Positions 39,750 to 40,633 of a stretch of 64,000 bases of DNA are shown piece after piece; within the stretch, counting starts at the first letter, position 1, and every line of letters starts with the position of its first letter. Origin of the DNA: Fibrobacter sp. UWB2 (lineage in GTDB: Bacteria; Fibrobacterota; Fibrobacteria; Fibrobacterales; Fibrobacteraceae); the NCBI RefSeq assembly GCF_002210425.1, contig NZ_MWQK01000006.1, forward strand, positions 186,001 through 250,000, written 5' to 3'. Made by a program: the position numbers and the translations under genes. The notes beneath the pieces were generated by a model. It ran no database searches. It had not been told where the DNA came from and saw only the letters and a list, made by a program, of their open reading frames with translations.

Positions 39750-39822
39750 AGCGGGAAAAGGGACTCGGACCCTCGACCCCGACCTTGGCAAGGTCGTGCT
39801 CTACCAACTGAGCTATTCCCGC
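39750..39822 (-). tRNA. tRNA-Gly(GCC), copy A
   Basis: On the minus strand: acceptor GCGGGAA / TTCCCGC, D-arm TAGCTCAGTTGGTAGAGCA, anticodon stem CGACC-TTGCCAA-GGTCG with anticodon GCC, and T-arm GAGGG-TCCGAGT-CCCTT. The length is 73 bases with T as discriminator and no encoded CCA. It is identical to copy B at 40561-40633. Confidence 0.96.
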
Positions 39823-40193
39823 GAGGGTGACCCATATATAGAAATAAAATTTGTAGTTATAAAGGGGTATGGGGCGAAAAAAGTGAATTTTTTTTGTAGA
39901 GCGGGGAAAAGGGATTGTCAAAGTCCAGTCCCCGCTTCGCGGCTGGCCTTTGCCCCTTCGGGCTTGCGCTCACTACGTTCGCGTCAAGCGCAAAATTCGT
40001 CTCTTCGCACTTCGTGCATGAGCCGAATTTTGTGATTCGTCGTCAGTCACCCGTGCTAAGGCACGGGCTGACTCCTCACCCTTACGGGCTTATCGCTACG
40101 CGATAATTCCTAAACAACTCGTACGCACTTCGTGCATCTCGTTGTTTAGTCGGCCCCTCTTCTCGGGGCCTCGTCCAGTTCAGTACATAAAAC

Positions 40194-40224
40194 AAAAGAG
40201 CCTAGCTTGACGCTAGGCTTTTTG
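40194..40224 (-). terminator. terminator in repeat unit 1
   Basis: GCCTAGC-TTGAC-GCTAGGC with AAAAGA on one side and TTTTTGTTTT on the other. It follows a tRNA-Gly 3'-end fragment on the minus strand. Confidence 0.85.
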
Positions 40225-40523
40225 TTTTAGAGCGGGAAAAGGGATTGTCAAAGTCCAGTCCCCGCTTCGCGGCTGGCCTTTGCCCCTTCGGGCTTGCGCT
40301 CACTACGTTCGCGTCAAGCGCAAAATTCGTCTCTTCGCACTTCGTGCATGAGCCGAATTTTGTGATTCGTCGTCAGTCACCCGTGCTAAGGCACGGGCTG
40401 ACTCCTCACCCTTACGGGCTTATCGCTACGCGATAATTCCTAAACAACTCGTACGCACTTCGTGCATCTCGTTGTTTAGTCGGCCCCTCTTCTCGGGGCC
40501 TCGTCCAGTTCAGTACATAAAAC

Positions 40524-40554
40524 AAAAGAGCCTAGCTTGACGCTAGGCTTTTTG
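40524..40554 (-). terminator. terminator after tRNA-Gly copy B
   Basis: The same stem as at 40194-40224 (GCCTAGC / GCTAGGC). It starts 7 bases past the 3' end of tRNA-Gly copy B. Confidence 0.88.
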
Positions 40555-40560
40555 TTTTAG

Positions 40561-40633
40561 AGCGGGAAAAGGGACTCGGACCCTCGACCCCGACCTTGGC
40601 AAGGTCGTGCTCTACCAACTGAGCTATTCCCGC
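40561..40633 (-). tRNA. tRNA-Gly(GCC), copy B
   Basis: 73 bases, identical to copy A at 39750-39822: same acceptor stem GCGGGAA, GCC anticodon in a 5-bp stem and T discriminator. It is the upstream member (minus strand) of the block; two 3'-end fragments and copy A follow it. Confidence 0.96.

Follow-up and report, generated by a model that had tools for sequence, protein, structure and literature searches.

The window analyzed here is a 64,000-nucleotide stretch of the Fibrobacter sp. UWB2 genome (G000, 3.53 Mb in 15 contigs; window C6:186001-250000). It carries two identical tRNA-Gly(GCC) genes on the minus strand, and between and behind them lie copies of the tRNA 3′ end, terminators, and hairpins, arranged as follows. 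T3 denotes the stretch from the T-loop to the tRNA 3′ end, T5 the 5′ strand of the T-stem, and R the reverse complement of the T-arm; Ma, Mb, and Mc are module types, and R1 and R2 are two covariance models described below.

40560..40633, minus strand: tRNA-Gly(GCC) copy 1, with its T3 at 40560-40575
40246..40575, minus strand: unit 1 (330 bp), consisting of T3, terminator (about 40518-40559), R/T5 hairpin (about 40480-40508), Ma, and Mb
40363..40479, minus strand: module Ma of unit 1 (117 nt, CTAAACAACGAG...GAATCA), from the R2 match at 40375-40500 and the junctions
40246..40362, minus strand: module Mb of unit 1 (117 nt, CAAAATTCGGCTC...TTTGACA), matched by R1 at 40235-40368 (E 9.5e-9) and by R2 (E 2.4e-20)
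39916..40245, minus strand: unit 2 (330 bp), opening with a tRNA-Gly T3 at 40230-40245 and containing Ma at 40033-40149 and Mb at 39916-40032
39899..39915, minus strand: second tRNA-Gly 3′ fragment (T3 with one extra C), closing the array ahead of the leader of tRNA copy 2
39749..39822, minus strand: tRNA-Gly(GCC) copy 2, with a promoter-like leader of its own that is 74% like the copy 1 leader
39708..39748, minus strand: terminator hairpin of tRNA copy 2 (AGAACCACT/AGTGGTTCT), an inverted repeat
39660..39697, minus strand: R/T5 hairpin (GGGGTCGAGGGTGCGA), an inverted repeat of the T-arm reverse complement followed by the T-stem 5′ strand
39550..39659, minus strand: module Mc, a third type (110 nt), behind tRNA copy 2, matched by R1 at 39539-39691 (E 3.1e-6) and by R2 at 39539-39683 (E 1.3e-16)
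39534..39549, minus strand: decayed T3 (TTCCCGCCGCCCGCTC) closing module Mc, with a further terminator after it at 39493-39530

A preliminary description of this DNA had reported a 330-bp tandem duplication between two identical tRNA-Gly genes, and two identical units are indeed present: a 300-nt direct repeat with 100% identity (39904-40203 against 40234-40533) has a spacing of 330, and Tandem Repeats Finder places the repeat at 39888-40574 with a period of 330 and 2.1 copies. The order of elements given there also holds, running on the minus strand from tRNA-Gly through terminator, hairpin string, tRNA 3′ fragment, terminator, hairpin string, and tRNA 3′ fragment to a leader, tRNA-Gly, terminator, hairpin string, and decayed tRNA 3′ fragment. 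The copies of the tRNA-Gly 3′ end, put at 11-15 bases, are slightly longer; both span the T-loop to the 3′ end over 16-17 nt (ATCCCTTTTCCCGCTC, minus strand, 40245-40230; ATCCCTTTTCCCCGCTC, minus strand, 39915-39899, with one extra C). For the identical 330-bp pair, as assembled, the best reading is that a whole unit was duplicated recently. The first reading had not noted that the T-arm is split, that each unit holds a pair of homologous modules, that a fifth module follows the second tRNA gene (39550-39659), or that the same elements stand behind other tRNA genes.

Tandem copies of tRNA genes abound in UWB2, with three Lys genes at a spacing of 224 bp, three Glu genes at 226 bp, and pairs of Asn and Leu genes. 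Identical genes spaced by 200-310 bp lie at C1:74227-74747 (Lys x3), C7:5858-6382 (Glu x3), C2:259863-260138 (Asn x2), and C2:228820-229211 (Leu x2), a sign of a genome in which tRNA genes readily duplicate in tandem. Behind the tRNA-Glu(ttc) triplet (L154, C7:3400-7900), the tRNA tail and terminator recur in decaying copies without a module, and tRNA-Glu(ctc) (L156) has a similar decayed tail. In relatives, genes named by eye as a nitrilase-like protein, FISUMP-type Ser-rich lipoproteins, and a galE-like epimerase lie between the tRNA-Gly copies (L092:2071-3189, L093:2379-3611, L097:2733-3947, L102:2524-3540, and L106:2718-3734), so the tRNA-Gly locus gains genes as well. Elsewhere in the window, positions 54293-54336 and 18820-18884 hold short tandem repeats (20-bp palindromic TTGTATTCTCATGATACAAA; 12-bp TTAATGTGCCAT).

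The units are tRNA 3′-half copies opened at the T-loop

The 330-bp unit is a copy of the tRNA 3′ half split open in the T-loop and laid out as T3, terminator, R, T5, Ma, Mb, and the next T3. We read this grammar from the tRNA-Pro(tgg) loci of 30 Fibrobacter genomes, where R comes after the tRNA and its terminator and is the reverse complement of both T-arm and 3′ half (GGTAGCCAGATCGAACTGA); a short loop separates R from T5 (TCAGTTCGA), and an insert of several hairpins lies between T5 and T3 (ATCTGGCTACCCCGAT). Within one strand, R is able to pair with T5 and T3, with the insert looped out at the T-loop. A module (about 105-130 nt) comprises hairpin A with an inner mini-hairpin, hairpin B, CCC-GNA-GGG, and hairpin C. 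In UWB2, a copy of T5 lies 67-79 nt behind Gly(gcc) (x2), Gly(ccc), Pro(tgg), Pro(cgg), Ser(cga), and Arg(tct), and its sequence matches each tRNA; the Arg(tct) locus has arms and hairpins but was not called as a module by the second model. Another tRNA of the same genome, tRNA-Arg(acg) (L149, contig C1), has a module-less T5 and T3 copy about 164 nt behind it, with hairpins that precede the T-stem and do not lie in the T-loop.

In several species, modules also interrupt complete tRNA-Pro(tgg) genes (L216, L263 in two copies, L264, L265, and L266). The tRNA sequence of such a gene is complete from its start up to TTCGA (nt 60), where the module takes over, and picks up again at ATCTGG, and an intact tRNA-Pro(tgg) comes next; these cases fix the insertion point between TTCGA and ATC. 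The interrupted genes mostly look decayed. A decayed tRNA-Pro(tgg) on the reverse strand of L211 and of L214 (about 1400-1520) bears a hairpin-rich insertion in the anticodon loop in addition to its T-loop module, and at L265:1095-1310, an insert of about 190 bp that resembles a MITE (terminal inverted repeats GGCAACC/GGTTGCC) sits in the hairpin A loop of a T-loop module.

The modules form a family confined to tRNA genes

The first covariance model (R1) was built from seven tRNA-Pro(tgg) modules only, with a structure taken from single-sequence folds, and it matched the tRNA-Gly units of the window (E 9.5e-9 and 3.1e-6) as well as the elements behind Ser(cga) (5e-25), Pro(cgg) (5e-21), and Gly(ccc) (9e-4). 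The second model (R2) was built from 85 sequences that include the modules of the window, so its E-values there are not independent. In UWB2, R2 finds nine modules at E<=1.3e-9, with the next candidate at E 0.2; the Gly locus of the window holds five, and Pro(tgg), Ser(cga), Pro(cgg), and Gly(ccc) have one apiece, all matched to the tRNA that they follow. The preliminary description had proposed looking for the unit next to other tRNA genes and had counted copies at many unrelated loci against its reading; all nine modules of this genome lie behind tRNA genes and none elsewhere, and the proposed tie to tRNA genes thus stands.

Module matches occur in 78 of the 80 genomes of the genus. Across the phylum, 95/168 genomes and 9/41 genera match, and among the matches listed for these 168 genomes, all fall in one family (f1) and none lies outside the Fibrobacter family. 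Loci picked by the model alone hold modules behind Ser(cga), Pro(cgg), Pro(tgg), or Gly(ccc), with arms that match that tRNA; the first module is typically 54-65 nt from the tRNA, up to six stand in tandem (L247, L248), and the few loci without a tRNA in reach are explained by contig ends. Throughout the Fibrobacter family, these cassettes sit nowhere but in a T-loop, either that of a tRNA gene or that of a tRNA-end copy following one.

When the locus and five other tRNA loci were scanned with Rfam (4227 families), only tRNAs passed the gathering score, and the miRNA and sRNA matches (E 0.0035-1) fell far under theirs. DNA similarity searches against phage and plasmid records gave no match, and a conserved 18-nt motif matched four viral contigs, none of which contains a module or a tRNA. 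We found no description of such hairpin cassettes in the open-access literature (most subscription journals lie outside this coverage), and the family of about 110 bases is apparently new to the literature.

Modules are joined in various orders at exact junctions and cluster by tRNA type

At the Gly loci, the three module types occur singly or as Ma-Mb, Ma-Mb-Mc, Mb-Ma, or Mb-Mc. A module starts directly after ..CGA or after the ..CA/CC of the preceding module, with one partial copy in genome G007 as the exception, and ends directly before T3 or the next module; the junctions read CGA joined to C(A/T)AAA and CA joined to (A/T)TCCC. Within G007, one R type precedes Mb or Mc, and between species, terminator and R types combine freely with modules. 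An orthologous segment of 447 bp (Mb-T3-terminator-R-Ma-Mb) is present in one and absent from the other of G000 and G045, with breakpoints at the boundary of T5 and Mc and flanks identical at 158/162 and 124/127 positions; a 6-nt microhomology (AAATTC) at the breakpoints makes an ordinary, microhomology-mediated deletion possible. When labeled by the nearest tRNA, modules cluster by tRNA type and not by genome (1 of 143 best matches crosses types); they are therefore old and locus-bound and were amplified and shuffled in place, with movement from tRNA to tRNA being rare or ancient.

The tRNA-sense strand probably folds as DNA

In the module alignment, 92.2% of cells are paired (28-45% for slid controls), 40 of 42 stem pairs change on both sides, and the covariation score is 0.541 (0.04-0.07 for slid partners), figures that lean towards the structure because the alignment was fitted to it. 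Covarying DNA palindromes can arise by quasi-palindrome correction without selection. On the tRNA-sense strand, 240/313 triloops of four-bp hairpins are GNA, in which G and A are fixed and N varies, and 2 are the complementary TNC; the GNA share is about 6% among triloops of shuffled modules, and 3/26 other window hairpins (stem 6 or more) have such loops. GNA/GNNA loops closed by G-C pairs form extraordinarily stable DNA minihairpins (PMC4686876). G-U pairs make up <2% of module cells, with G-U:A-C at 89:35 overall (20:3 in helix 4, 35:29 in helices 2+6) and at 40:6 in tRNA stems from the same genomes. The GNA triloops and the G-U pairs, apparently little favored over A-C, suggest that it is probably DNA that folds, and specifically, we infer, the tRNA-sense strand as single-stranded DNA. 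As DNA, this strand folds at -73.7 kcal/mol (z -9.9) and the opposite strand at -64.0 kcal/mol (z -7.7); with a sense-strand z of -9.9, the locus sequence is far from chance.

Xer-like proteins are the only common candidate recombinases

As the preliminary description had noted, no integrase is visible at the locus; the window's contig has zero tyrosine recombinases, and the four PF00589 genes of the genome, which encode an XerC-like protein, an XerD-like protein, and two others (L198, L199), sit on C1, C4, and C7. None of the four proteins reaches the integron integrase cut-off, and we found no recombinase dedicated to the modules. The L199 type (L199:1447-2283, 278 aa) occurs only in module-bearing genera of the family and in about half of the genus genomes, and the L198 type is sporadic; we rejected both as obligatory drivers, as they are missing from many module-bearing genomes. 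The Y1 transposase (PF01797) was rejected as a resident driver, being absent from UWB2 and from 53/80 genus genomes. This leaves the XerC/XerD-like proteins as the only common candidates.

Discussion

In this work, the anatomy of the elements, their homology across tRNAs, exact junctions, insertion in the T-loop, tRNA-only location, covariation, and strand-specific GNA loops were demonstrated. We tentatively favor an explanation to which we give close to an even chance, in which the units are arrays of non-coding DNA-hairpin cassettes that are anchored at a tRNA gene and fold and are exchanged at the T-loop. A cassette occupies the T-loop (TTCGA/ATC), either in a copy of a tRNA gene or in a palindromic copy of the tRNA 3′ half behind the tRNA. 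The tRNA-sense strand may fold as single-stranded DNA during replication, repair, or R-loops, and R would then pair with T5 and T3, so that a double-stranded T-arm site is rebuilt with the cassette looped out. Cassettes could be gained, lost, and exchanged at the rebuilt site by a host recombinase or by template switching in replication, and the identical 330-bp pair would be a recent whole-unit duplication of the cassette array. Since every unit brings its own tRNA 3′ half and terminator, the upstream tRNA stays intact however many units pile up. A more specific version, which we consider unlikely, is that Fibrobacteraceae have an integron-like, gene-less system anchored at the tRNA T-loop, with sense-strand hairpin cassettes added, swapped, and lost there by a not-yet-recognized recombinase (Xer or other).

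A passive history is a serious, if somewhat unlikely, alternative. Tandem tRNA duplication and decay would have been joined by one or a few ancient hairpin insertions into T-loops, which spread inside each locus where T3/terminator repeats and module-end microhomologies allow unequal crossover or slippage, and quasi-palindrome template switching would keep the palindromes perfect, with no dedicated mechanism or function. Such a history fits the common tandem tRNA duplicates of this genome, the decaying tail-terminator copies behind tRNA-Glu, the grouping of modules by locus, the 100% identity of the duplicated units, and the 6-nt microhomology at the 447-bp indel. The preliminary description had suggested unequal crossover that truncated inner tRNA copies, which may well account for the recent 330-bp duplication but leaves the inserted hairpin modules, the Gly/Pro/Ser homology, and the reverse-complement arm unexplained. 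Passive events alone likewise fail to account for a single T-loop target shared by several tRNA types, for three kinds of module with many orders and exact ends, for persistence in 78/80 genus genomes, or for GNA loops in which only N varies. An improbable alternative is that transcription reading through from the tRNA yields module RNAs with a role of their own, be it as a regulator, a processing element, or a T-loop intron. This agrees with the strand-specific, covarying multi-helix structure, with R being antisense to the 3′ half of the tRNA, and with the promoter-like leader and, in several species, the nearly unchanged 5′ half that interrupted tRNA-Pro genes keep, but modules mostly lie past a strong terminator, G-U pairs stay under 2% of cells, GNA triloops and not GNRA/UNCG are the rule, no Rfam family matches, and some interrupted genes are broken elsewhere too (the anticodon-loop insertion of L211/L214).

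Strings of palindromes behind bidirectional terminators, kept 54-65 nt after the tRNA and persisting at the same loci, could also be host chromosome elements of the REP/BIME type that bind gyrase or nucleoid proteins, or control supercoils or forks, behind highly transcribed tRNAs. We judge this very improbable, as only some tRNAs bear modules, such a role does not need tRNA-matched arms, no module lies behind a non-tRNA gene in UWB2, and the REP-associated Y1 transposase is absent from that genome. Least credible, with only a slim chance, is that an ordinary integrative element left an att footprint at the 3′ end of the tRNA. The preliminary description took the tRNA 3′-end repeats as the hallmark of an integration site, and integrase crossovers of class II are known from the T-loop (PMC1762012), but neither integrase nor cargo lies between the repeats, the spacer consists of hairpins only and is homologous at several unrelated tRNAs, the modules are vertically kept by locus, there is no phage or plasmid match, and the examined viral contigs contain no module. 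The hallmark in its usual sense of integrase, cargo, and att repeats thus finds no support. The more open suggestion in that description, a footprint of a small element, comes close, as discrete modules of about 105-130 nt do sit in T-loops, even within complete tRNA-Pro genes; the elements are not a mere island footprint, nor just truncated tRNA copies.

The cassette family may reveal a new way of shuffling DNA at tRNA genes. If the cassette reading is true, tRNA genes are more than landing sites for integrase-bearing elements and also anchor self-contained arrays of DNA-hairpin cassettes that persist across a bacterial family, giving a clean natural case for recombination of folded single-stranded DNA outside integrons and for the upkeep of GNA-loop palindromes; the integron-like version, if shown, would be a new kind of system. 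There is also a warning here, in that repeats of a tRNA 3′ end need not signal a genomic island.

Comparison with known systems

The rtT repeats of the E. coli tyrT locus (Rfam RtT) stand in tandem behind a tRNA gene, and each opens with the tRNA 3′ end. The Fibrobacter units share this arrangement, but hairpin modules divide their tRNA copy at the T-loop, homologues lie behind Gly, Pro, and Ser tRNAs, and the RtT model gave no match to the locus at E<=1. Integron attC arrays resemble the Fibrobacter arrays in their head-to-tail cassettes, exact junctions, and growth beside a fixed anchor, and probably also in a site formed by one folded DNA strand. Unlike integron cassettes, those of Fibrobacter have no genes and no integron integrase above the cut-off, are anchored at a T-loop, and are kept by locus, and the attC core RYYYAAC/GTTRRRY (G/TT core site) at which integron cassettes are exchanged is absent from their junctions.

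The T-loop is also the class II crossover site of tyrosine integrases (PMC1762012), and class II tRNA integration sites have the same T-stem arms around a 7-nt T-loop at the same position, whereas the Fibrobacter element is about 110 nt long and non-coding, with neither an integrase nor an attP-like loop duplication on both sides. Genomic islands integrated at tRNA genes share the flanking tRNA 3′-end direct repeats and differ in having an integrase and cargo between them. REP/BIME and other palindromic repeats are likewise short, non-coding DNA hairpins in intergenic tandem arrays, but the Fibrobacter modules are not scattered (9/9 behind tRNAs in UWB2), lack a Y1 transposase in that genome, and are strictly tied and sequence-matched to tRNA T-arms. 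With structured RNA families, they share helices conserved by compensatory change. Taken together, the modules do not combine the defining features of any family tested, and every single trait has a known parallel, be it in rtT repeats, T-loop integration sites, integron cassettes, or REP elements.
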